Assembly: GCA_903813345.2 (NCBI GenBank)
Contig: CAIIXF020000003.1
Coordinates: 29,093,248-29,157,247, forward strand
Reading direction: 5' to 3'
Source of the DNA: Owenia fusiformis
Taxonomy: Eukaryota; Annelida; Polychaeta; Sabellida; Oweniidae
DNA: 64,000 bases
Shown here: piece after piece, positions 6,201 through 64,000 of the stretch
How the letters are laid out: each line of letters starts with the position of its first letter
Numbering within the stretch: position 1 is the first letter of the stretch
Notes under the pieces: generated by a model
The model's database searches: none
Told to the model about the DNA's origin: nothing
The model's input: the letters and a program-made list of their open reading frames with translations, nothing else
Translations under genes and position numbers: made by a program

Positions 6201-9200
6201 CATTTTGATTATTTTCAATGTGGTAATTGGTCTGGTTTGGTTTTCATGGGTTCCTACATAAGGTACAGGCTGCATACTTGTTAATTATGTTTTTTTTCGG
6301 TTGATTTATGACTAAAATTAGTTTATCATGAAATTATTTGTGACACTGACATTGAGCTCTAACTGGTTCAATTCTCTTTCTCTAAAACGTGGCTGATAAT
6401 GCTGATACCCAGCCACAAGCACATGTGCACTCGTTATAAAGTATTCTTTGTATAAATAAATAAATAAAAAAGAAATTCAATTCTCCAAAATGGTTCATTA
6501 TGTTTCATCATAAATAAGGAGTATTGGTATTTAAAATCAGAAATAAACATGAACTTCTTTATCGTACCTAACAAAAGGTACGATATTGTAGTCAGCTTGA
6601 CGGGCGGCGGGCGGGCGGCGTCTCACTTTTCAGCTTGTCTACAGTTTTCAAGTCCAAACCATTTGAGGGATTCATCTGAAATTTTCAGGGATGTTTCTAC
6701 ATATCAACGTCAAGAACTGATTAGTTTTTGGGCATTCTTGGTAAATCTTAAGGTGGCCATTTTGGATTTTCCGTCCTAAAATCTTCACTTTCAAGACTTG
6801 TCTACAGGTTTCCAGCCAAACCATTTGAGGGATTCATCTGAAATTTTCAGGGATGTTTCTACATATCAACGTCAAGAACTGATTAGTTTTTGGGCATTCT
6901 GGGTAAATCTTAAGGTGGCCATTTTGGATTTTCCATCCTAAAATCTTCACTTTCAAGACTTGTCTACAGGTTTCCAGCCAAACCATTTGAGGGATTCATC
7001 TGAAATTTTCAGGGATGTTTCTACATATCAATGTCAAGAACTGATTAGTTTTTGGGCATTCTGGGTAAATCTTAAGGTGGCCATTTTGGATTTTCCGTCC
7101 TAAAATCTTCACTTTCAAGACTTGTCTACAGGTTTTCAGCCAAACCATTTGAGGGATTCATCTGAAATTTTTAGCGATGTTTCTACATATCAATGTCAAG
7201 AACTGATTAGTTTTTGGGCATTCTGGGTAAATTTTAAGGTGGCCATTTTGGATTTTCCGTCCTAAAATCTTCACTTTCAAGACTTGTCTACAGGTTTTCA
7301 GCCAAACCATTTGAGGGATTCATCTGAAATTTTCAGGGATGTTTCTACATATCAACGTCAAGAACTGATTAGTTTTTGGGCATTCTGGGTAAATTTTAAG
7401 GTGGCCATTTTGGATTTTCCGTCCTAAAATCTTTACTTTCAAGACTTGTCTACAGGTTTCCAGCCAAACCTTTTGAGGGATTCATCTGAAATTTTCAGGG
7501 ATGTTTCTACATATCAACGTCAAGAACTGATTAGTTTTTGGGCATTCTGGGTAAATTTTGAGGTGGCCATTTTGGATTTTCCGTCCTAAAATCTTCGCTT
7601 TCAAGACTTGTCTACAGGTTTCCAGCCAAACCGTTCAAATTTTTACATATGTTACACAGTGATAAGTTCTAGAGCTGATTAACTTTTCTGCGGCCATCTT
7701 GCTTTCTTGGTCAACAAGACCACAATGCTGTGTTTTTTTATTGATTTACTCAATTTATTTGTTTCAATATAATATATTACAAAAGTAACTATTGATTGTC
7801 TGTAACATGAAAACATTTACTTCGACACACTTAATTATCTGTAAAAAAGATAAAATTCATCAAAATATTGAATACTTATTATTTAACAAGAAAATATATC
7901 AGGGTCAAGTACACCAAGTACATAAAAATAATTTGGAATTTCTCATCAAAGAAGCCCATATATATAGTGATTGATTCAAATGAATGACAATAAAGTAAGC
8001 TGTGCCATTTTGTCTTTGTTCTTAAACCACTCTTGCATCTTTTCATTGTGTTAGGTATGAACGTGAGCGTGAACGTGAACATCTTGAGGGCCCACCCCCT
8101 GGTCACCATCACCACCGGCAACATCATCATGGACAACACAGAGATGGACGTGAGAAGCTGCAACCAAATCGGGGAGAGATCATGGTAAAATCAAGGGGAG
8201 ATGAATGGATTGACCCCTGGCAGAGGTGAGATGTTACAAATGTTTACATTTGGGTCATAGTGTTTACTGGTTTGTTACATACATTTGTGCCCAATCTATG
8301 TCTTTCTCAGAGTCCATTTAAAAACTGGAACAGATGTTACTTTGCCATGTAAACTTACAGAGAAACAAAATATTTTACTTTTTGCAGTTTTTATTTAATT
8401 TTTACTCTCCTCTGCTGTTCATTTCACTTAAAATTTCCTGGTGTCTCTACAAATACACTTTTCCAAAACACATGTTATGATAGATAGCTGAGCTTCAGAT
8501 CAGAGAATCAGAGAGGTCTAGATCCAATAAAATGGCCGAACTGTTAAGAGTTAAATACCTTATGTACAGCACGCGTCTTTTGCTATTTCATAGGACCAAG
8601 TCTCCCAAGAGAAAGGATGGTTCAAGGAGCAGATCTAGATCTCGAGGACGACCTAAACATCGGGGTTCAAGATCACGAGGGAGCTCATATTCTTCATATA
8701 CCTCGAGGTGAGTATGCAAAATATAGAAAAATCAATCTATGATGAGTTGTTATGAATGCTTAACCAGACAGGTTTTATTTGTGTTTTGTCAGTTGATAAT
8801 AGATTATATAATATTAAGGATAGCTACATGTATAATTCTGCCTATTGGTTGTTTACTTTGGTTCTTGAAAAGCATCATCAAAGTTGTCATACATTTCTGG
8901 TCTGGTATAATTGAGCACAACTGATTCCAAAACTATACAGGCTTTCTCACTTTCTTAGGATATCCTATTAAGAGTCTATGTCACATTACTTTTACATATC
9001 TAGTGAAAATGTATTTATTTCAGCTCTTTCAGTTCAAGGTCAAGGTCATCAAGTTACTCGTCATACTCAAGTCGTTCCTCATACAGCAGATCTTCATCTT
9101 TTAGCTCTAGGTAAGAACAATATAATTTTTTTTACAAAAACAAGAAAACCCTATTGAAATTAATGCTCTGAACAGTTTAATTTTAAAGAGTATTGCTTTC

Positions 9201-16218: not shown

Positions 16219-19200
16219 TTACGGTGTGGAGTTCACGGATCCCTTTCTCCTGTCTTTCTTATTTTTCCTATCTTTCTTATTTTTTCTGTCCTTATTTTTG
16301 TTGCCTTTCTTTTTACCCCCCTTCTTCTTTTTAGGTTTTTTCGTACACGTTGTCAACTCCCCGTCCCACATGCCGTTGACACACGTTCTTGTAGCTGACC
16401 CTTGTAGGATAGGAAACTTCTTCTTGCATGAAAATGTCACCTGATCCCCGTGTTCGTAACTGTTTTTCATTTTTATACTTTTTGCTCCATTTGGAAGTGC
16501 AAGTGGTGAACATCCAGCTAAAATACGAATATAAATGTGTTGATGCAAACATAATAGAGTTGGTTACATAACTCCCCTATCACACCAAGCTAGTTCTCAA
16601 CCGTTCTTTCCAGTCTTACAAAATATGTCTAAAATAATTATCTAGTTCGTTTATAAACAGTCTTCAATACGTCAATCTCATTCTTAAGGTCGCACCATGT
16701 CGGTGCACAGGTAAGTTCAGTAATTGTTATCCGATTGGACAACGTCGTTATCGCGTACCTAATGGTTCGAAATACGGCAATTACGTTCGCAGTCAAGTAG
16801 GTAATCCCGTTTGAAGTACCTTGTCATACGATTTTATTGTAAAACGGTATGGTTTCCATCGAATTTTGAAATGGTTAAATCCTTCCCGTCTGAGCACGTC
16901 CATGAAGTTCGTAAACAGACCGTAGAAAGTTGCAGTTACGTTCATTCCGTTCGTTCACAGTTTAAAACCAGCTGGGTAACGTTTTTAAGAACCCAGTTGA
17001 ACAACGCAGTGACAACTAGTTTGGTTTGATAGCTATTTTTGCTAACTCGTTCATAAAAAGTCGTTATTCCGTCTACATAACGCATCCACGCAGTTCAATT
17101 GCGTCCTTAGTCGTTCTCAATACGTCCCTAGTAAAACTGAAGTACGACTGTTCCGTTCGTAGTACGTCCAGCTCGACTTATACGTTGTCACTCGTTATGA
17201 TTGCAGCAAGTTACGACCAAAAGAACAGTTGGAACGTGCTCTAGGTTCTGGAGAACCTACCCGTTCGAGTACGTTCATGAAGTTTGTAAATAGACCCAAA
17301 ACGGTCACATCCATCCGTTCGTACACAGTTTAAGCCCGTTTTCGAGAACGTAGTGAGAACTAGTTTGGTGGAATAAGGTGGGAGGTTATATAGTTGAGAA
17401 CGTACAGCAAGTTATAAGTAGCCGCTACTGTAATATATTTGTTAGCGTGGATCGTACATTTTGTATTTTAGAACGTACGTAACAGTAAGCTTTGAGTAGC
17501 CGCTACCCCCCCCCCACCTATAACACCAAACTAGTTCTCAACCGTTTTTCCAGTCCTACGAAAAGTCGTGAAACGGGCTAATCTGACTGGTAGAGAAATA
17601 TGTCTAAAATAATTAGCGACTTCGTTCATAAACGGTATGGTCGCCATCAAATTTTGAAATTATTCAAAATTCTAAATCACATTCCCGTCCGAGCACGTCC
17701 ATGAAGTTCGGAAATAGACCGTAGAAAGTTGCAGCTACGTTCATTCCGTTCGCACACAGTTTAAAACCCGTTTTTAAGAACGCAGTGCCAACTAGTTTGG
17801 CGTAGCCATATTTTTGCTAACTCGTTCATAAGCATGCTTTTATAAGTCCTTTATCAGTTTAAACCAGTTAGCTCTAAGTTCTGGAGCACGTACCCGTTCG
17901 AGTACGTTCATGAAGTTTGCAAATTGACCCTAAACGGTTCTAAGTTCGTCCAATCCGTTCGTACATAGTTTAAGGCCGTTTTCGAGAACGTAGTGAGAAC
18001 TAGTTTGGTCTTTCAGTAGGGTACTGTAATATATTTGCTAGAATCGATCGTGCATTGTACATTTGAAAACGCCCAGTAACATAGTAAACTTTGACTTGTC
18101 GCTATCGTAGTCGAGCTAGTAGCTAAAAGTCCATGTGACCCCCTCCCACTACTTGACTACACCGGTATGAAAACTTCTCACACAGTGGGGAGGTGTGAAG
18201 TGGGGTGGGGGGGCGAATGGCTTATAGCTTGCGCCTAGTACACGATAAAGAGATGAGTACAATTCAATAACTGTTCAAGTTCACAAACATATTAATAGCG
18301 AAATTGTATTAAAAATACAATATACAGGGTGACACAAAAGATGACACCCACCAAAATGCAACTCAACTTTTGTAACATAACTTCGTAAATGCTAATGATT
18401 TTGGCTTGTACTTTCAGGGAAATAAAGTTCATTCAAATAAACACAAAATAATGTAGTTGTCGTTGATAAAATCATTATAACTTATTTCAAAAATTATGTT
18501 ACAAAAGGTGAGTGTCATTTTTTGTGTAAGATCCAGTTGTGCCAGCGGAGTTGTAGAATGGAGTGTATAGTAGTTTTAATGTGCAAAAAATCAGAATTTT
18601 TTCAGACAAAAAAGTTATGAAACATTTTGTGGGTGGGTGTCATTTTTTGTGTCAAGCGGTATTATGAAAAATGTTTGCATTAAGACGGGTTAATGTTCAT
18701 TGTTCAAATGGGAAAGTGTTCAAATTTCAAATTAAGAGGTTCCCAGTTTCAAAAATAGGATACGATTATTTCAAATTAACATGAAAGTCAATGGAAAAAC
18801 AAGATCGGAAAACATATTCACATTTGGACGTGTTTGTGTTCACATGTAGAGGTGTAAATGTTCTTATTTAGACGTAGTGTTCACATTTGGACGTGTTTGT
18901 GTTCACATTTGGACGTGTTTGTGTTCACGTTTGGACGAGTGTTCATATTTTGACATTTTAGTGTTCACATTTGGACGTATTCGAGTTAAGGAGGTGTTTG
19001 GGTAAAGAGATTTTACAGTTTCTGCTGACTATTTCTTTCAGTATTTAACTCACCAAACTCCTCTTCGGGTGGTGGTTGGGGTTCTGTTACGACTTCATTT
19101 GTGGTTTCTTCTGGCTTTTCAGGTGTCTTGGTAGTTTTTGGTTTTTTAGGCTTGTCTACCTTTGGTTTGCTTGTGTCAGGCTTAGTTATCACAGGTCTAT

Positions 19201-26558: not shown

Positions 26559-29500
26559 TTATTGTCGATGTTGGCGAAGTCCCCTCATACACGACGATTC
26601 TTCATGTTTGTAAAGATAACTTTTCAGCGCAAACGCCTTGCCACACCTCCCACAAACAAAGGGTTTTGCGGAAGAGTGAGTTTGAATGTGCGCACGCAGG
26701 TTTGATTTGTCGGCAAATGCTTTTCCACATTTTGCACATTTGAATGGTTTCTCTCCAGTATGTGTGCGAAGATGGCCCTGTAACAGCCACGGTCTCGAGA
26801 ATTTCTTTCCACACACGGAACACTCACAACCTTGATTGTGCGTGCGCACATGCATACTGTACGCTGGCATTGACACGTAAACCTTCTCACAATGGGGACA
26901 TTTTCTGGCCTTTTTGTCGGTTACACTGCGATGGGTTTGTCGATGTCGTGCTAAGTTAGATGGGGTGCTATAGCTGCGGCCACATTCGACACATTCAAAT
27001 TCGTCCCCACTGCAACTTCCATCACTGAGAGATGCCCGGATGTTGTCGGTCATAGATGCCCGAATGTTCTCCGTGCTGAGGGACTGATCATATTCAGCAA
27101 GTGTAATACTAGGTGGTTTCACGATTGGACCACTCTGTATGAGCATAAGAAGATTTGGATTCTCGTAACTAGGTGAAGAATGGATGACTGATGGGCGCGG
27201 TGAAGGGACCGATTCAACAGCTGATTCTTCGCCGTCGCTCCGTTTAGCAATCTCGGATTCAGACATCTCACATTCCACATTTCGTGATAAGTCGTGTTGG
27301 GTTTCAAACACTTCATGGAATCTATCGAAGACAGGAGATAAGGGAGAGAGATCCGGACAGGCATCTGAAAGACATGAGAGAATAAATTGAGCGAGATAAT
27401 ACATTTAAGCGCCCCAATTTGTTTCATTAAACGAGCCAAACTGATATATGTGCTCATCATGGACAATTAGAAACTTACAAGCGAAAGCTGTTAATTGTGT
27501 CTTCTCTTGATTAATCATATTGATGCGTGATCATTTAAACAGAATAAACTTTAGCTTCATCCTGGCATATTGTTATCTAGTCATAATTCAGTCAACCTTA
27601 AGTTCTATAAACACATTAAGACACATATATATTGTGATGTTAGGCCCGTAGCCAGGATTTGCCAAGGGGGGGGGTTCAGTTTTCAAAAATTTCCAGGGGG
27701 GTTCACATTTGACAATTTTGGCCCAAATTTGGCTAAAATCACTTGAAAAGTGCTCAAAATGGTGAAAAACTGCATGATTTAGAAAGAACTTTTGGCCAGG
27801 GGGGGGGGGGTTCGCCCGAACCCTGCGAACCCCCCTTCTGGCTACGGGCCTGGATGTACATACATGTGTGTATCTAGTGTGTATTGTCTTCGAAATTGAC
27901 ATGATAGGCTAACGGGGCAATATAAAGACCCGGGTATAAAGATGACCTGTATCAAGTAATAGCATGGTTTAATTTGACTAAATGACAATAATCACAAGAA
28001 GTGTTGTGATTAAAACCATGACCATGATTTGAGAGGCTAGCTATGAGACAGGCGAGGCAAACGCCTCACCAAAACTTCACAGAAAAATATTTTTAGACTG
28101 AATCAGTGAAAATCATGTCACAGAAAACATCCTTTTTGACTTAACCAAAATAATTTTGTCTCGCCTTTTTTGGTTTTTGAATCTTGTCCCCTGATGACAT
28201 GAAAATCTCCAACCATCGACCAATTATTACTTTATCAGTGTCACTAATCACTTTTCATTAATCCAAACCACTCCACGGCTAATATGTTCAGCGTCTGGTA
28301 TAGCTTGCTGTTATGTTTATTCTAGTAAGACAGGTGTCTTGATGTGTTTACCATAAACCCTTTCAAAAGTCATATTATCCCAACATCCTTTGAGAATAAA
28401 GTAATTTTTTGCAGCTTTGACTATGTAAGTTGAAACGAGAGATGGACTGTGTTATCTATAGTTAAAGACAGCGACCAATGGTGTCAGAAAGTAAGTCACG
28501 TGTCATGTCCAACTTCTATATTTGGCAATACACGTAACGGGACACCTTTGGATAAGGCACATTTGTCACTTACTGTAAACTGCAACGCACGGAAGTAATC
28601 ATGCAAGTAATCATGGACAGAGAAGTTTGTTTAAAGAAATAAAAATGAGCTATTGGATTTTTAATAGTTTTAGATACTGGCTGCCTTGCTACCTGCTATG
28701 ATTTACTTTGTCAAGGATGTACTTTCGCCCTGCTTCGCTTTATCTTTTTTATATACTTTCAAATAAAACATATTCGGCTACAACGTACGAAAGTGAAAAA
28801 GAAAACATGGACAGAGAAAGTTGTTGAAATAAATGAAGCTGGGTTCTTATAAACATGTTAGGCTAAGCGATTGGGCGCCATAACAACGAGGTTGCGAGTT
28901 CGAGACGCGTGTGCTCTTTGTGTTTATTCATTAAATAGCTTTCAATAATGTTTAGATTGCCTGACTATGTCTACCGACCTTATTATGTCTTACTTTGTCA
29001 TGCATTTCGTTCTGCTTGGTTTTTTTCGATTAGTCTTGTATTTTTCTGTATAGTTTTTAATAAAATATGTTCTGTATATAATGCGTATGATATAGCTAAG
29101 AAAGAACTCGATTAAACATTACATTGATAGATGCATATTCTTATTCAAACAAAAAATGAATATTACAATGGTTGATAAAGTTGAAATCTATATATAAGGC
29201 CACAACCAATGCGTATCGTTCCACCAAGACTGCATCAGCCACAGACACCAAGTCGAAATTAAACCCCTTTAGTTTTTTGCCTAAGCCATCTTCATCTGAC
29301 ATATTAGTGGGACCAGATGCTAGTATATCTCTGCTAAAGAAGCCATCTGGTTTCAGAAGTCCTACGTTTTTTCCAAGTTAATAGGCTTACTGGGGTCAGA
29401 GGTCTCACACAGATACTATTTCTACTCCCATAAATTTACTACAAAGTGTGCGTATTTTCATCTAAGTTGTTTTTTAGAAACAACTGTTGCAGTCGAGAGT

Positions 29501-41404: not shown

Positions 41405-47128
<5,724 letters not shown>

Positions 47129-49119: not shown

Positions 49120-49740
49120 GAATTATGGCAATGTCTATACTTTCTATACATTGTCTATACTTTCTATACTTTCGATCTCTTTTTTCATACTATCTGCCTT
49201 CGACGTTTCTATACTTTCTATACTTTCGAACTGCTTTTTCATACCAACCGCCTTTGACAAATCAGATGTCTATAGTTTCTATACTTTCGAAATGCCCTTT
49301 CATACTAACTGCCTTTGACAAAGCAGATGTCTATAGTTTCTATACTTTCTATACTTTCGATCTGCTTTTTCATATAACTGTCTTAGACAAATCAGATGTC
49401 TATAGTTTCTATACTTTCTATACTTTCTATCTGCTATTTCCCAGAACTGTCTTCGACATATCAGATGTCTATACTTTCTATACTTTCTATACTTTCGATC
49501 TGCTTTTTCCCATAACTGTCTTCGACAAATCAGATGTCTATAGTTTCTATACTTTCTATACTTTCGATCTGCTTTTCCCCATAACTGTCTTCGACAAATC
49601 AGATGTCTATAGTTTCTATACTTTCTATACTTTCGATCTGCTTTTCCCCATGACTGTCTTCGACAAATCAAATGTCTATAGTTTCTATACTTTCTATACT
49701 TTCGATCTGCTTTTCCCCATAACTGTCTTGATTCAGAAAG
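49120..49740. repeat. 69-bp minisatellite built on tctatactt
   Basis: About eight units of 69 bp (steps 49531, 49600, 49669) containing two to three copies of tctatacttt and a gacaaatcagatgtctatag core. Open frames of 239 codons (plus) and 123 codons (minus) arise from the 23-codon unit and are not considered genes. Confidence 0.9.
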
Positions 49741-49779
49741 TGACCGAGAAAGTTATGACGTCACATATTGTTTTACAAT

Positions 49780-49995
49780 GTACAGAAAGTATCGAAAGTA
49801 TAGAAAGTATAGACATAGAGATTTCACCAAAATGTAAAGTATAGAAAGTATCAAAAGTATCGAAAGTATAGACATAGGGAATTCACCAAAATCAAAAGTA
49901 TAGACAGTATAGACAGTATAGACATGTATAGACTTTAGAGAGTCCAATCGTCTAAGACTGAAAAAAGCAGTTCGAAAGTATAGAAAGTATAGAAT
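49780..49995. repeat. Inverted arm of the tctatactt minisatellite
   Basis: agaaagtatcgaaagtatag and similar words, the reverse complement of the core of 49120-49740, so the two tracts can form a hairpin. Confidence 0.75.
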
Positions 49996-53975: not shown

Positions 53976-56900
53976 TCACAGTTCATCTTTTTCTTTTTGT
54001 TCTTTAGCTTTGAGTCTTTGCTTTTCAATATTCGCCATAAACTTTTTCCAAAATTGGTATTTCTTATGGGAAAACATTTGAGAACGAGACACTCTTGGTT
54101 TTAATATCGCAAATTCTTCTTCTTCCAAGTCATACTCCGGCCAGTGTGGGAGATCCCCGTCATTTGGATTTCTAGAAAAGCAATACTATAAGTTATTGAA
54201 TGATTTGAAGTGCAATACAGGATATATTCTGCTCGAGAAATTCTGTATTGGAACGAGACGAAGTTGAGTGCCAATACAGTATACCGAGACAGAATATACC
54301 CTGTATTGCACTTCAATTCATTTAATAACATTTTTATCGTGTGATCTTAGGCCAATACATTCTACTCAGGAGATAATCCCTAAGAATTATTCTGTATTCG
54401 TACCAATATTTTCTGTATTGCTACGGAGATGATCAATGGGAACAATCTCAGTAGCAATACATATTGGTACAGCACAAGAACTGATCAATCAGAGGGCTTC
54501 ATTTTGCAGATCACACGATAAAAACGTATGATGGAACACGTGGTATATGATAAAATACACGTGATAATAAGATGAAAGAAGTAATTTGATGAAGCAAATC
54601 TGTATGTTTTTCAAATGAATTAAACAATTTGAGGTTTTGTGAATTAAAAATACCCTGTTGCTGCAAAGTTGGCCCAGTACTGCATCATTTGTTTGCTGAA
54701 CTCCTGTTCTGCTTCGTTGAATACATAGCCCTTTTCTTCATCTACCCAGATGTCTAGGAATCCAGTACCAAACATGAAGAAGACATCATCAAAGTGTGTG
54801 GACACAACGAACTCTGGTCTTTTAGGTTGAATGAAACTTGGATCGTGTGTGAAGACATAAAAGAAGGTCTTACCACCATTTGCTGTAAATGAAGAGACAT
54901 ATTTTTGTGATTGTCTGTCATTGGAAAAATAAGACAAAGCACAAGAGATATGAGAAATTATTAAAAAATCGATCGACAAAAACAATTTTTTCATTTGTGA
55001 GTTTGTGATACTTGGCAAATCAATGTAATGTGTCCTTTCGAGACACCCTGCACATATTTTAGCCCAATAAGTGTTGAGCAAAGAATGAACAAAGAACAAA
55101 ACCGTATACACGAGTTAAACCAGCATAACGAATGCGTAACAATTTTCAACGAGATGCAACATGATATTAACCAACCCTTTATGGTGTCCGTCAAATTGAG
55201 AGCTGGAAAAGCCATGTTAAAGTCACCGACTATATCAACGGCCTTTACTTTGTATAGACTCTCCACTTTAGGGGAATGGTTATCTTTGAAGTACATTTTT
55301 GCAATTTTCTCTAAATGTTTATTAGTGAGGGCATCATCTTTCATCAGCATTGAGAGTCCTAGTTTTATCTCATCTAAGAAATGTGCATACGTGTAATCTG
55401 CCACTTGGGTATCCCCTATAAACACAGAAACAATCTCTTCTACGATATGAGCATAAGTATAATCTGTGACAAATTACAATTTGTTAAAAAGCTATGAAGA
55501 AATCCGAAGAAATCTTTGTTTACTACAAGGTGTCTGTGTGATAAAATGCAACTGTCCCTGTTGAATTAGTTTTAAAATGGCACTCACCTGTACCTTGAAA
55601 AAATGTATACCCTTCCTGCTCCGCCACTCCAACCATCACCTCCTTATCACTGAAATCAGTTTTAGCATACAAATCCTTAGGGTGCTCAAGGAAGAACTGC
55701 CCGCCATCCACCGTTGCCCAGTCCATATACATATTACCGTTTCCTATCTTTTTAATATCCTCGACAGATTTCATCCTCAAGCATTGCACTTGTTCCATTA
55801 CTGTTTCATATTTGCAATCTGCAACCAAATATGGAGTGAAATTATGGAGATATCTCAAGGACCCGGAATCTAATATGTAACATCTAAAAACTATATATCG
55901 TGTATGATTAAACGATAAAACAACGAGAAACCGAGCCAATACACATCTAGACGAAAGTATTACCTAACTTTTCTACAGTCTCATCAAACCTCTCTTTTGG
56001 GTTGTCATTGATAAGTTTATCTGTGAGTATAGATCCACTCTGAAGAATGGCTCTCTTGAACAGGGGTTTACTTCCATGGGACACGAGATGAGCAGAAACA
56101 CTCCAACTACCTAAAGAGACATTGTCATGCATGGATGGGTTCAAAAACAACTTTTTGAAATCAAAAAAAAAGTTGCACGTATCATATTTTCAAAACATTG
56201 GGTAATACTAAAATATAAGCCAAAGTGATTTAAACTTTATATGAAATCATTTTCAGCTGCCATATCAAACTGTTTTCTTTACTTTTCTCTTACCTGCCCC
56301 CTCTCCTGCTATTGTTATTCGATCTGGATCTCCACCAAATGCATGTATGTTTTCGCTTGTCCATTTCAGTGCCATCTGTTGGTCAAGGAAGCCCATATTG
56401 CCGGGAATTTGGTTATCGCCGGAGTTCAGGAAACCTGTTGAGTGTTCATGTATTGCACATTACATGCTAAATTGTCATATCTTTATTGCCCTTTTTTATT
56501 TGAAGGAGATATATTTATTATGGTACAGTATAATATGGCAATAAAATTAAAGACTGGAATGAAATCGAATGAACAAGGCATAAGAAAATTATAGTACAAC
56601 CGAACCATCACGGTAAGAAAAATATGTGATAGTACCTAAATGTCCTGTTCTATAGTTGATTGATACAACCACCAAGTCTGTGAATGTACACAGAGCAGTT
56701 CCATTGTATGTATGACCAGTACCTGGAATTATCACATATGATATAGATAAAATGCTATAGATACAACCACCAAGTCTATGAATGTACACAGAGCAGTTCC
56801 ATTGTATGTATGACCAGTACCTGGAATTATCACATATGATATAAATAAAATAATATAGATACATCCACCAAGTCTATGAATGTACACAGAGCAGTTCCAT

Positions 56901-59900
56901 TGTATGTATGACCAGTACCTGGAATAATCACATATGATATAAATAGAATGCTATAGATACAACCACCAAGTCTGTGAATGTACACAGAGCAGTTCCATTG
57001 TATGTATGACCACTACCTGGAATTATCACATATGATATAAATAAAATAATATAGATACATCCACCAAGTCTATGAATGTACACAGAGCAGTTCCATTGTA
57101 TGTATGACCAGTACCTGGAATAATCACATATGATATAAATAAAATGCTATAGATACAACCACCATGTCTGTGAATGTACACAAAGCAGTTCCATTGTATA
57201 CGTGACCAGTACCTGGAATTATCACATATGATATAGATAAAATGCTATAGATACAACCACCAAGTCTATGAATGTACACAGAGCAGTTCCATTGTATGTA
57301 TGACCAGTACCTGGAATTATCACATATGATATAAATAAAATAATATAGATACAACCACCAAGTCTATGAATGTACACAGAGCAGTTCCATTGTATGTATG
57401 ACCACTACCTGGAATTATCATATATGATATAAATAAAATGCTATAGATACAACCACCAAGTCTATGAATGTACACAGAGCAGTTCCATTGTATGTATGAC
57501 CACTACCTGGAATTATCATATATGATATAAATAAAATGCTATAGATACATCCACCAAGTCTATGAATGTACACAGAGCAGTTCCATTGTATGTATGACCA
57601 CTACCTGGAATTATCATATATGATATAAATAAAATGCTATAGATACAACCACCTAGTCTATGAATGTACACAGAGCAGTTCCATTGTATACATGACCAGT
57701 ACCTAGAATTATCACATATGATATAAATAAAATAATATAGATACAACCACCAAGTCTGTGAATGTACACAAAGCAGTTCCATTGTATGTATGACCAGTAC
57801 CTAGAATTATCACATATGATATAAATAAAATGCTATAGATACAACCACCAAGTCTATGAATGTACACAGAGCAGTTCCATTGTATGTATGACCAGTACCT
57901 GAAATTATCACATATGATATAAATAAAATGCTATAGATACAACCACCAAGTCTATGAATGTACACAGAGCAGTTCCATTGTATACGTGACCAGTACCTGG
58001 AATTATCACATATGATATAAATAAAATGCTATAGATACAACCACCAAGTCTATGAATGTACACAGAGCAGTTCCATTGTATGTATGACCAGTACCTGAAA
58101 TTATCACATATGATATAAATAAAATGCTATAGATACAACCACCATGTCTGTGAATGTACACAGAGCAGTTCCATTGTATGTCTGACCACTACCTGGAATT
58201 ATCACATATGATATAAATAAAATGCTATATAGATACAACCACCAAGTCTATGAATGTACACAAAGCTTTTCCATTGTATTCATGACCACTACCTAGAATT
58301 ATCACATATGATATAAATAAAATAATATAGATACAACCACCAAGTCTGTGAATGTACACAAAGCAGTTCCATTGTATACATGACCAGTACCTGGAATTAT
58401 CGCATATGATATAAATAAAGAGCTATAGATACAACCACAAAGTCTATGAATGTACACAAAACAGTTCCATTGTATACATGACCACTACCTGGAATTATCA
58501 CATATGATATAAATAGAATGCTATAGATACAACCACCAAGTCTATGAATGTACACAAAGCAGTTCCATTGTATACATGACCAGTACCTAGAATTATCATA
58601 TATGATATAAATAAAATGCTAATAGATACAACCACCAAGTCTATGAATGTACACAAAGCAGTTCCATTGTATACGTGACCAGTACCTAGAATTATCATAT
58701 ATGATATAAATAAAATGCTAATAGATACAACCACCAAGTCTATGAATGTACACAAAGCAGTTCCATTGTATACATGACCAGTACCTGGAATTATCGCATA
58801 TGATATAAATAAAGAGCTATAGATACAACCACAAAGTCTATGAATGTACACAAAACAGTTCCATTGTATACATGACCACTACCTGGAATTATCACATATG
58901 ATATAAATAGAATGCTATAGATACAACCACCAAGTCTATGAATGTACACAAAGCAGTTCCATTGTATACATGACCAGTACCTAGAATTATCATATATGAT
59001 ATAAATAAAATGCTATAGATACATCCACCAAGTCTATGAATGTACACAGAGCAGTTCCATTGTATGTATGACCAGTACCTGGAATTATCACATATGATAT
59101 AAATAAAGAGCTATAGATACAACCACAAAGTCTGTGAATGTACACAAAGCAGTTCCATTGTATACATGACCAGTACCTGGAATTATCATATATGATATAA
59201 ATAAAATAATATAGATACAACCACCAAGTCTATGAATGTACACAAAGCAGTTCCATTGTATGTATGACCAGTACCTGAAATTATCACATATGATATAAAT
59301 AGAATGCTATAGATACAACCACCAAGTCTATGAATGTACACAAAGCAGTTCCATTGTATGTATGACCAGTACCTAGAATTATCACATATGATATAAATAA
59401 AATGCTATAGATACAACCACCAAGTCTATGAATGTACACAGAGCAGTTCCATTGTATGTATGACCAGTACCTGAAATTATCACATATGATATAAATAAAA
59501 TGCTATAGATACAACCACCAAGTCTATGAATGTACACAAAGCAGTTCCATTGTATTCATGACCACTACCTGGAATTATCATATATGATATAAATAAAATG
59601 CTATAGATACAACCACCAAGTCTGTGAAAGTACACAAAGCAGTTCCATTGTATGTATGACCAGTACCTGGAATAATCACATATTATATAAATAAAATAAT
59701 ATAGATACAACCACCAAGTCTGTGAATGTACGCAAAGCAGTTCCATTGTATGTATGACCAGTACCTGGAATTATCACATATTATATAAATAAAATGCTAT
59801 AGATACAACCACCAAGTCTATGAATGTACACAAAGCAGTTCCATTGTATACATGACCAGTACCTAGAATTATCACATATTATATAAATAAAATGCTATAG

Positions 59901-62900
59901 ATACAACCACCAAGTCTGTGAATGTACACAGAGCAGTTCCATTGTATGTATGACCACTACCTGGAATTATCATATATGATATAAATAAAATGCTATAGAT
60001 ACATCCACCAAGTCTATGAATGTACACAAAGCAGTTCCATTGTATGTATGACCAGTACCTGAAATTATCACATATGATATAAATAAAATGCTATAGATAC
60101 AACCACCAAGTCTATAAATGTACACAGAGCAGTTCCATTGTGTGTATGACCACTACCTGGAATTATCATATATGATATAAATAAAATGCTATAGATACAA
60201 CCACCAAGTCTATGAATGTACACAGAGCAGTTCCATTGTATGTATGACCACTACCTGGAATTATCATATATGATATAAATAAAATGCTATAGATACATCC
60301 ACCAAGTCTATGAATGTACACAGAGCAGTTCCATTGTATGTATGACCACTACCTGGAATTATCATATATGATATAAATAAAATGCTATAGATACAACCAC
60401 CAAGTCTATGAATGTACACAGAGCAGTTCCATTGTATGTATGACCAGTACCTGAAATTATCACATATGATATAAATAGAATGCTATAGATACAACCACCA
60501 AGTCTGTGAATGTACACAAAGCAGTTCCATTGTATACATGACCAGTACCTAGAATTATCACATATGATATAAATAAAATAATATAGATACAACCACCAAG
60601 TCTGTGAATGTACACAGAGCAGTTCCATTGTATATATGACCAGTACCTGAAATTATCACATATGATATAAATAAAATGCTATAGATACAACCACCAAGTC
60701 TATGAATGTACACAAAGCAGTTCCATTGTATGTATGACCAGTACCTGGAATTATCATATATGATATAAATAAAATAATATAGATACAACCACCAAGTCTA
60801 TGAATGTACACAGAGCAGTTCCATTGTATGTATGACCAGTACCTGGAATTATCATATATGATATAAATAAAATGCTATAGATACAACCACCAATTCTATG
60901 AATGTACACAAAGCAGTTCCATTGTATACATGACCACTACCTGGAATTATCACATATAATATGAATAAAATGCTATATAGATGCAACCACCAAGTCTGTG
61001 AATGTACACAAAGCAGTTCCATTGTATGTATGACCACTACCTGGAATTATCACATATGATATAAATAAAATGCTATATAGATACAACCACCAAGTCTGTG
61101 AATGTACAAAAAGCAGTTCCATTGTATGTATGACCAGTACCTAGAATATGATATGATATAAATAAAATGCTATAGATACAACCACCAAGTCTGTGAATGT
61201 ACACAAAGCAGTTCCATTGTATGTATGACCAGTACCTGGAATTATCACATATGATATAAATAAAATAATATAGATACAACCACCAAGTCTGTGAATGTAC
61301 ACAAAGCAGTTCCATTGTATACATGACCAGTACCTGGAATTATCACATATTATATAAATAGAATGCTATAGATACAACCACCAAGTCTATGAATGTACAC
61401 AAAGCAGTTCCATTGTATGTATGACCAGTACCTGGAATTATCATATATGATATAAATAAAATGCTATAGATACAACCACCAAGTCTATGAATGTACACAA
61501 AGCAGTTCCATTGTATACGTGACCAGTACCTAGAATTATCACATATGATATAAATAAAGAGCTATAGATACAACCACAAAGTCTATGAATGTATGATATA
61601 AATAAAATGCTATAGATACAACCACCAAGTCTATGAATGTACACAGAGCAGTTCCATTGTATGTATGACCAGTACCTGAAATTATCACATATGATATAAA
61701 TAGAATGCTATAGATACAACCACCAAGTCTATGAATGTACACAAAGCAGTTCCATTGTATGTATGACCAGTACCTAGAATTATCACATATGATATAAATA
61801 AAATGCTATAGATACAACCACCAAGTCTATGAATGTACACAGAGCAGTTCCATTGTATGTATGACCAGTACCTGAAATTATCACATATGATATAAATAAA
61901 ATGCTATAGATACAACCACCAAGTCTATGAATGTACACAAAGCAGTTCCATTGTATTCATGACCACTACCTGGAATTATCATATATGATATAAATAAAAT
62001 GCTATAGATACAACCACCAAGTCTGTGAAAGTACACAAAGCAGTTCCATTGTATGTATGACCAGTACCTGGAATAATCACATATTATATAAATAAAATAA
62101 TATAGATACAACCACCAAGTCTGTGAATGTACGCAAAGCAGTTCCATTGTATGTATGACCAGTACCTGGAATTATCACATATTATATAAATAAAATGCTA
62201 TAGATACAACCACCAAGTCTATGAATGTACACAAAGCAGTTCCATTGTATACATGACCAGTACCTAGAATTATCACATATTATATAAATAAAATGCTATA
62301 GATACAACCACCAAGTCTGTGAATGTACACAGAGCAGTTCCATTGTATGTATGACCACTACCTGGAATTATCATATATGATATAAATAAAATGCTATAGA
62401 TACATCCACCAAGTCTATGAATGTACACAAAGCAGTTCCATTGTATGTATGACCAGTACCTGAAATTATCACATATGATATAAATAAAATGCTATAGATA
62501 CAACCACCAAGTCTATAAATGTACACAGAGCAGTTCCATTGTGTGTATGACCACTACCTGGAATTATCATATATGATATAAATAAAATGCTATAGATACA
62601 ACCACCAAGTCTATGAATGTACACAGAGCAGTTCCATTGTATGTATGACCACTACCTGGAATTATCATATATGATATAAATAAAATGCTATAGATACATC
62701 CACCAAGTCTATGAATGTACACAGAGCAGTTCCATTGTATGTATGACCACTACCTGGAATTATCATATATGATATAAATAAAATGCTATAGATACAACCA
62801 CCAAGTCTATGAATGTACACAGAGCAGTTCCATTGTATGTATGACCAGTACCTGAAATTATCACATATGATATAAATAGAATGCTATAGATACAACCACC

Positions 62901-64000
62901 AAGTCTGTGAATGTACACAAAGCAGTTCCATTGTATACATGACCAGTACCTAGAATTATCACATATGATATAAATAAAATAATATAGATACAACCACCAA
63001 GTCTGTGAATGTACACAGAGCAGTTCCATTGTATGTATGACCAGTACCTGAAATTATCACATATGATATAAATAAAATGCTATAGATACAACCACCAAGT
63101 CTATGAATGTACACAAAGCAGTTCCATTGTATGTATGACCAGTACCTGGAATTATCATATATGATATAAATAAAATAATATAGATACAACCACCAAGTCT
63201 ATGAATGTACACAGAGCAGTTCCATTGTATGTATGACCAGTACCTGGAATCATCATATATGATATAAATAAAATGCTATAGATACAACCACCAATTCTAT
63301 GAATGTACACAAAGCAGTTCCATTGTATACATGACCACTACCTGGAATTATCACATATAATATGAATAAAATGATATATAGATGCAACCACCAAGTCTGT
63401 GAATGTACACAAAGCAGTTCCATTGTATGTATGACCACTACCTGGAATTATCACATATGATATAAATAAAATGCTATATAGATACAACCACCAAGTCTGT
63501 GAATGTACAAAAAGCAGTTCCATTGTATGTATGACCAGTACCTAGAATATGATATGATATAAATAAAATGCTATAGATACAACCACCAAGTCTGTGAATG
63601 TACACAAAGCAGTTCCATTGTATGTATGACCAGTACCTGGAATTATCACATATGATATAAATAAAATAATATAGATACAACCACCAAGTCTGTGAATGTA
63701 CACAAAGCAGTTCCATTGTATACATGACCAGTACCTGGAATTATCACATATTATATAAATAGAATGCTATAGATACAACCACCAAGTCTATGAATGTACA
63801 CAAAGCAGTTCCATTGTATGTATGACCAGTACCTGGAATTATCATATATGATATAAATAAAATGCTATAGATACAACCACCAAGTCTATGAATGTACACA
63901 AAGCAGTTCCATTGTATACGTGACCAGTACCTAGAATTATCACATATGATATAAATAAAGAGCTATAGATACAACCACAAAGTCTATGAATGTACACAAA
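53976..64000 (-). CDS. Carboxylesterase-like pseudoenzyme with KDEL end (esterase 2), 3' exons
   Basis: Seven exons in phase: 56722-56636, 56434-56294, 56110-55964, 55818-55588, 55415-55176, 54882-54654, 54171-53976; about 422 residues seen. The N-terminal exons, with signal peptide and HGGG loop, must lie beyond 64000. Four of the seven exons have the same lengths as in esterase 1 (87, 141, 147 and 229 nt) and all phases agree. The nucleophile elbow reads [16 protein letters not shown]: Gly replaces the catalytic Ser. The acid (AEQEG) and histidine ([12 protein letters not shown]) are kept. The last residues are EKDEL, an ER-retrieval signal, preceded by a Lys/Glu-rich helix. By analogy with neuroligins, which also lack the Ser, it is likely a non-catalytic or binding protein; ER luminal location is inferred from KDEL. 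The intron upstream of 56722 contains the 98-bp array. Confidence 0.88.
54178..54535. repeat. Inverted-repeat elements in the last intron of esterase 2
   Basis: gaagtgcaatacaggatata (near 54208) pairs with tatacc-ctgtattgcacttc (near 54295-54315), with ggaacgagacgaagttgag at the loop. tttttatcgtgtgatct (near 54331) pairs with agatcacacgataaaaa (near 54509). Together they look like two adjoining or nested short foldback elements. Confidence 0.65.
55416..55463 (-). other. Possible 48-nt alternative 3' splice extension in esterase 2
   Basis: Exon 55415-55176 is preceded by a partial tandem duplicate of its own start. A second acceptor TTGTCACAG|AT at 55464 gives the same phase and adds 16 codons ([16 protein letters not shown]), echoing [11 protein letters not shown] in the exon. 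The shorter form aligns better with esterase 1. Confidence 0.4.
56723..64000 (-). repeat. 98-bp exon-derived satellite array (about 74 units), continues past window
   Basis: On the minus strand each unit starts at AG|GTACTGGTCATACATACA, carries 61 bp that match the head of esterase 2 exon 56722-56636 (coding for [13 protein letters not shown][T/I]DLVVVS), then 37 bp (tatagcattttatttatatc through ataattccag) that match the end of the intron including its 3' splice site. The array abuts the true exon. Variation is mostly at a few positions (tgtatgtatg/tatacatg, cctgg/cctag/cctga, aatgct/aataat/agagct). A few units are 99-100 bp and two are shortened near 61145 and 61593. No unit carries the exon's 3' part or its donor. 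Confidence 0.95.
59193..63994. repeat. Higher-order tandem duplication of 2,401 bp within the array
   Basis: About 59193-61593 recurs at 61594-63994 with an exact 2,401-bp offset (e.g. caattctatg at 60891 and 63292; short unit at 61145 and 63546). Only a few substitutions were noticed (e.g. tatatatgacc against tatgtatgacc, and ctatatag against atatatag). The join at about 61593 (gaatgtatgatataaat) is a shortened unit, consistent with unequal exchange. Confidence 0.85.

Follow-up and report, generated by a model that had tools for sequence, protein, structure and literature searches.

A satellite built from the acceptor and head of exon 3, upstream of that exon in an esterase gene of Owenia fusiformis

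We analysed a stretch of 64,000 nucleotides from the annelid Owenia fusiformis (assembly GCA_903813345.2, contig CAIIXF020000003.1, positions 29,093,248 to 29,157,247 of the forward strand), referred to here as the window, which contains two adjacent esterase genes, esterase 1 and esterase 2, both on the minus strand. A tandem array fills the final 7.3 kb of the window, and its minus-strand units end at exon 3 of esterase 2 (56722–56636). The standard unit joins 37 bp of the intron tail that precedes this exon to 61 bp in register with the exon head, so that the array repeats an exon border. The array probably goes back to a tandem duplication that was amplified to at least 73 neutral, shuffled units within esterase 2 and that the gene tolerates through their removal with the intron. 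At every unit border an acceptor is directly followed by GT (written AG/GT below, the slash marking the border). Each unit is therefore a segment running from GT to AG, and each border joins a decoy acceptor to a site that resembles a donor. The coordinates of all features are collected in Table 1.

Tandem Repeats Finder (TRF) reported the 98-bp array at 56662–64000, split into two rows with 50.3 and 24.6 copies. Our own extraction of sites at which an acceptor is followed by the exon head gave 74 sites in the window, of which one is the real exon 3 and 73 belong to the array. Since the array is open at the end of the window, the number of 74 is a lower bound, and the copy number of the array is at least 73. 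Successive sites were 98 bp apart in 63 of 73 cases, with the remaining spacings at 100 bp (five), 99 bp (two), 95 bp (two) and 146 bp (one). The units end with CAG in 58 and with TAG in 16 of the 74 sites. The sequences part after base 61 of the exon, where the real one reads on with AATCAACTATAG and the copies with TATAGC or a close variant; this places the repeat junction inside the exon. These data bear out an earlier note on this DNA, which had described about 74 copies of a 98-bp unit directly upstream of exon 3, the composition of 61 bp of exon head and 37 bp of intron tail with a junction inside the exon, and dozens of acceptor copies ahead of the true exon. The anatomy shows that a tandem duplication, with one end at 61 bp within exon 3 and the other 37 bp ahead of its acceptor, was amplified into the present array. 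DNA similar to the array but outside it was found within the window in 82 blastn rows (E value up to 1), 77 of which fell in the homologous exon of esterase 1 (44936–44850). The remaining five were chance-like matches of 13–28 bp with E values of 0.03 or more. No match to an exact 28-base stretch was found among viral contigs, a comparison that is uninformative for an animal gene.

A pair of adjacent 24-unit blocks within the array may stem either from a large duplication of very recent date or from a local doubling in the assembly. The two blocks differ by only 4 mismatches in 2384 bp and meet at a junction that is out of register, as expected of a mis-joined or haplotype-doubled array. We nevertheless consider it very improbable that the array, as a whole or in its 24-unit block, is an assembly artefact. 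The 74 copies comprised 43 distinct 92-mers, a diversity that an assembler would hardly invent, and false doubling is plausible for the block only. Copies differed from each other at a mean of 6.2 of the 92 positions compared, and for the six copies nearest to the exon the difference from the real copy amounted to 2 of 92.

The earlier note had remarked that the coding part of the units stays close to the real exon and shares its reading, which pointed to a possible use of the copies. The closeness was confirmed, with the restriction that the head of one of the 74 sites contains an in-frame stop, while the idea that the coding part is kept by use failed. For diversity statistics we used copies 24–72 (49 of the 73), so that the doubled block was counted once. 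Among them the proportions of nonsynonymous (pN) and synonymous (pS) differences were 0.059 and 0.051, a pN/pS of 1.17. Mean diversity at codon positions 1, 2 and 3 was 0.060, 0.095 and 0.027, respectively; position 2 is the most variable and position 3 the least, the reverse of the pattern left by purifying selection. Polymorphic columns were similarly frequent in the exon-derived part (20 of 61) and in the intron-derived part (13 of 37, with five copies of shifted tail excluded from this count). The 22 distinct changes relative to the real head included 15 nonsynonymous changes, 6 synonymous changes and 1 stop, close to the random expectation of about 70% nonsynonymous, 26% synonymous and 4% stop. 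Between the heads of esterase 1 and esterase 2 exon 3 we counted 8 synonymous differences and 1 nonsynonymous difference, against 6 and 16 (stop included) in the copies (Fisher test, p = 0.004). Selection on the copied coding part was rejected on the basis of the pN/pS value, the near-random spectrum of changes and the variability of codon position 2; the evolution of the copies is that of DNA without selection. They owe their intact look to youth and homogenisation, and the peptide that can be read in them is a sign of this.

The real exon 3 is under strong constraint when compared with its paralogue, with nonsynonymous (dN) and synonymous (dS) divergences of 0.015 and 0.72 from exon 3 of esterase 1. 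The number of synonymous differences between the two esterases was lower in exon 3 (10 of about 22 sites) than in exons 4–5 (46 of about 62 sites; Fisher test, p = 0.02), and this low synonymous divergence may be due to a splicing constraint or to past conversion.

The copies have also been shuffled among themselves. In 69 copies (the five copies of odd length were excluded) 96 of 378 pairs of columns contained all four combinations of variants, which means that variants were reshuffled between copies or arose more than once. Apart from the 24-unit block, similarity between copies did not depend on their distance along the array (Mantel rho −0.01, copies 24–73). The array thus behaves as a satellite, with head-to-tail, near-identical copies that are shuffled among themselves and free of coding constraint. 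These statistics, drawn from one sequence, show a neutral drift of the copies accompanied by shuffling and block duplication through unequal exchange or conversion. When the copies were tested for a trend with nearness to the exon, support for growth of the array from its exon end was weak or mixed. Rank correlations over copies 24–72 gave rho 0.04 for head differences (1971 of 5000 permutations as high), 0.20 for esterase 1-like states (395 of 5000) and 0.29 for tail differences (116 of 5000).

The real exon and the array seem to have exchanged sequence as well. Nine sites of the head distinguish the real exon from esterase 1, and at four of these the esterase 1 state is present in some copies (5, 24, 42 and 2 of the 73). 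The presence of esterase 1 states in part of the array makes an exchange between exon and array probable, and suggests that it took place after the birth of the array. These four sites would also fit an array that serves as a reservoir of exon 3 variants, from which gene conversion rewrites the exon head. In line with such a role, the state of the real exon at head position 30 was shared by 13 of the 15 nearest copies and by 9 of the 34 copies 24–57 (p = 1e-4, with both site and cut picked post hoc). However, the rank tests were weak or negative, the real exon keeps its amino acids and repeated mutation at the same sites could have had the same effect, so that we regard a reservoir function as highly unlikely.

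The host gene is represented in the window by exons 3–9, and homology with esterase 1 places the array in intron 2. On the COesterase profile of Pfam, exon 2 of esterase 1 covers positions 80–122 and its exon 3 covers 114–150, while exon 3 of esterase 2 covers 117–146. As exon 3 of esterase 1 comes just after exon 2 on the profile, esterase 2 needs upstream exons, which necessarily lie beyond the array. The match of the exon 3 piece of esterase 2 is a fragment match of 21.3 bits, below the gathering score of 27. Among the six open reading frame (ORF) pieces of esterase 2 that were scanned (exon 9 lay outside the scan), five matched COesterase at E values up to 0.001 and the exon 7 piece had no Pfam match. 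The best solved relatives of esterase 2 by sequence were carboxylesterases and cholinesterases, with neuroligins among the solved matches.

If esterase 2 were a dying or 5'-truncated gene, the splicing of its array would need no explanation. Its first two exons are absent from the window and the serine of the active site is replaced by glycine, with GEGAG aligned to the GESAG of a solved esterase, the form that esterase 1 retains. Yet the gene has 439 open codons over seven exons, its introns 3–8 are bounded by GT and AG, it ends in KDEL, and exons 3–5 show a pN of 0.13 and a pS of 0.67 against esterase 1. Non-catalytic relatives of esterases, such as the neuroligins, also exist. A dying or truncated esterase 2 is in our opinion unlikely. 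With its glycine and its KDEL end, esterase 2 is perhaps a non-catalytic protein of the endoplasmic reticulum. The glycine-for-serine site is encoded at 56294–56306 together with 56109–56110 on the minus strand, and the KDEL end lies at 53976; the likely last ORF of esterase 1 has a hydrophobic end.

A second exon start of esterase 2 has been duplicated. At the beginning of exon 7 (55367–55466, minus strand) we observed a two-copy duplication of acceptor and exon head, in which CAG and the following 31 nt are repeated. The two heads, at 55463 and 55397, lie 66 bp from each other, and the copies agree at 28 of 34 positions. None of 300 single-base shuffles gave as good a repeat. The duplicated unit is a multiple of three and open. 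Over 33 nt its copies show 4 synonymous and 3 nonsynonymous differences, most of which leave the amino acid unchanged or replace it conservatively. No such duplication was found at the eight other exon starts that were tested in the same way (exon 9 and the part of esterase 1 past exon 5 were outside the test, and start positions were 1–2 bases off for four of the nine exons). Duplication of an exon head thus seems to have occurred twice in esterase 2, with different fates.

Since the whole array lies upstream of the true acceptor and could be removed with the intron, the gene may well tolerate it. What happens at the decoy acceptors is a separate matter, on which the sequence of the borders bears. 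All 74 sites have the border (C/T)AG/GT with the AGGT core of dual-specific splice sites, and in all of them CAG or TAG is followed by GTACTG or GTAGTG. When pairing with the 5' end of U1 was calculated for the eight GTs of one unit, the border GT was the best with −7.1 kcal/mol, and the next reached −4.6 kcal/mol. Over the 74 borders the values were −7.1 (37 borders), −8.5 (21), −5.5 (15) and −6.9 kcal/mol (1). Eleven real donors of both genes (esterase 1 introns 1–5 and esterase 2 introns 3–8) ranged from −5.1 to −13.3 kcal/mol, and seven of them were weaker than −7.1 kcal/mol; an alternative donor for intron 6 of esterase 2, about five bases upstream, scored −6.2 kcal/mol. The real donor of exon 3, TAG/gtactatc, shares AGGTACT with the commonest unit border. 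Exon 3 of esterase 1 begins with AG/GG and that of esterase 2 with AG/GT without a change of amino acid, a single comparison. In 60 of the 73 array units the first in-frame stop came 86 nt past the acceptor, and in the other 13 it lay no more than 284 nt past it, so that any unit kept unspliced would spoil the message.

These features are compatible with a mechanism in which splicing to a decoy acceptor regenerates a GT that would then act as a donor. The unit would be spliced out again and the message would end at the true exon whatever the number of units, so that a wrong splice could be repaired without leaving a trace. Removal of decoy units through such re-splicing at AG/GT borders is a tentative proposal, to which we give somewhat less than even credit. 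In its strongest form the satellite would erase itself, each unit acting both as a mini-intron from GT to AG and as a pseudo-exon from AG to GT, and splicing would advance by one unit at a time, like a ratchet, until it reached the true exon. The number of units would then be invisible to the mature message, and an exon border could give rise to an array of any length in a working gene; we think this full version unlikely.

Several observations weigh against re-splicing. The border donor is ordinary, as −7.1 kcal/mol is just inside the best quartile (−6.9 kcal/mol) of 195 AGGT sites outside the array on the minus strand, and 15 of the 74 borders pair at only −5.5 kcal/mol. No border carries the GTAAGT of the consensus for recursive sites of the fly (PMC5126111). 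Selection on the AGGT core was not significant (p = 0.19, given 33 variable columns out of 98). Starts of the type AG/GT are common in esterase 2 anyway, exons 3, 4 and 5 all beginning with GT, and with exons 1–2 absent from the window the array could sit upstream of a 5'-truncated gene.

It is at least as likely that the decoys are ignored through exon definition. In that case the array would be no more than an intronic minisatellite overlapping an exon border by chance. Its decoys would be passed over because the last copy alone is followed by the tail and donor of exon 3, with a stem perhaps helping in the choice of the real exon, and we see in this a substantial possibility, close to an even one. 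It agrees with the neutral evolution seen alike in exon-derived and intron-derived columns, and also with the fact that no copy other than the real one carries the 26-bp exon tail and the donor TAG/gtactatc. The real exon lies between the arms of a 10-bp inverted repeat (Table 1), and the fold of the 130 nt around it (56616–56745) had a z score of −1.96. On the other hand, the local acceptor is much alike in all copies, as seen in the six nearest ones, and another AG/GT mostly follows 98 nt past each decoy, which gives the decoys the look of short exons as well. The stem is weak evidence, as 8 of 200 shuffles folded as well and its upstream arm is also present in many array copies. A specific RNA fold of the unit itself was rejected: three of the 74 units were folded, with z scores of −0.15, −0.41 and 0.62, no better than shuffles.

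Parts of this arrangement are known from other systems. A potato RdRp gene gained an intron when a segment spanning the end of intron 1 and the start of exon 2 was tandemly duplicated once (PMC4974935). There, as in esterase 2, an intron end and the start of the next exon were duplicated and the copy inherited the acceptor signals of its parent. The potato gene has one extra copy and esterase 2 at least 73, and the potato intron recruited a cryptic exonic donor GTAAG with support from RNA-seq, whereas the best donor-like site in esterase 2 is, judged by its sequence, the border itself. In human UBC and VCX3A, tandem units carry one AGGT each as a dual-specific splice site, and 77 human introns have a length that is a multiple of the surrounding repeat unit; such repeat expansions have been proposed to be less harmful since they can be removed by splicing (PMC10809524). 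The likeness to esterase 2 lies in the AGGT of each unit, with the GT of one unit and the AG of another bounding segments of whole units. However, UBC has 9 coding units, of which those retained become ubiquitin, and VCX3A has 8 (PMC10809524), whereas the 98-bp unit of esterase 2 is not a multiple of three, is partly of intronic origin and brings a stop when retained.

Recursive splicing proceeds through ratchet points of the form (Y)nNCAG/GTAAGT (PMC5126111, PMC10156609). The borders in esterase 2 resemble them in having an acceptor directly followed by GT, but depart from the fly consensus CAG/GTAAGT in their donor half, and dozens of such points would lie within about 7 kb. The introns of Drosophila kl-3 and kl-5 are filled with satellites of simple repeats that are megabases long (PMC6508621). 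Like the array of esterase 2, these satellites lie inside an intron and have to be transcribed and removed; in the accessible text of that paper they are not described as copied from an exon border of the gene itself. Among the matches listed in our full-text literature searches we noticed no satellite made from an exon border, but subscription papers were mostly outside this search and the absence is no proof. The claim in the earlier note that an exon-border satellite of this size inside a gene is not a described class is too strong, given the published two-copy case (PMC4974935) and the AGGT arrays (PMC10809524). What is new here is the presence of at least 73 copies of a genuine acceptor, apparently within an intron; the array of esterase 2 combines features of the potato type and of the UBC and VCX3A type at a far larger copy number.

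It is an open question how the spliceosome settles on a single acceptor when many equivalent ones are present. Esterase 2 offers a natural test, with dozens of near-identical acceptors that differ mainly in their downstream context and a paralogous single-copy intron as a control. If re-splicing at AG/GT borders proved true, it would account for a gene that keeps working while a repeat expands over one of its exon borders, and intron gain through tandem duplication would be seen to reach the scale of a satellite.

Table 1. Coordinates of the array, the esterase genes and the inverted repeat in the window (positions of the 64,000-nucleotide stretch)
Feature	Position	Strand	Remarks
Tandem array, 73 copies of 61-bp exon 3 head plus 37-bp intron tail	56723–64000	minus	upstream of esterase 2 exon 3
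Distal 24-unit block	61611–63994	minus	4 mismatches in 2384 bp against the next block, lag 2401 bp
Proximal 24-unit block, partner of the distal block	59210–61593	minus	inter-block junction out of register, spacing 146 bp
Esterase 2, exons 3–9	53976–56722	minus	439 codons free of stops, introns 3–8 all GT-AG, C-terminal KDEL
Esterase 2, real exon 3, 87 bp, first 61 bp copied	56636–56722	minus	acceptor CAG/GTACTG, donor TAG/gtactatc
Esterase 1, exons 1–5 modelled	45911–44027	minus	
Esterase 1 exon 3, single-copy homologue	44850–44936	minus	starts AG/GG, not AG/GT; preceding intron 353 bp
Upstream arm ATATGTGATA of the 10-bp inverted repeat bracketing exon 3	56730–56739	minus	
Downstream arm TATCACATAT of the inverted repeat	56622–56631	minus	just inside the intron past the exon 3 donor

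Other repeats were observed elsewhere in the window. A 22-bp minisatellite of 27 copies (45932–46530) adjoins the first modelled exon of esterase 1 on its upstream side, and several of its minus-strand frames are open. Arrays of the TCTATACTT type with 9-bp and 69-bp units occupy 49132–49941 and are followed nearby by an array of GTATAGAAA units, which looks like an inverted relative of them. An array of 6.2 copies of a 162-bp unit at 6623–7632 contains AGGT 12 times on the plus strand and once on the minus strand. The minus strand also holds an ORF coding for C2H2 zinc fingers at 26559–27404 and an ORF with a Sushi domain at 16219–16563.

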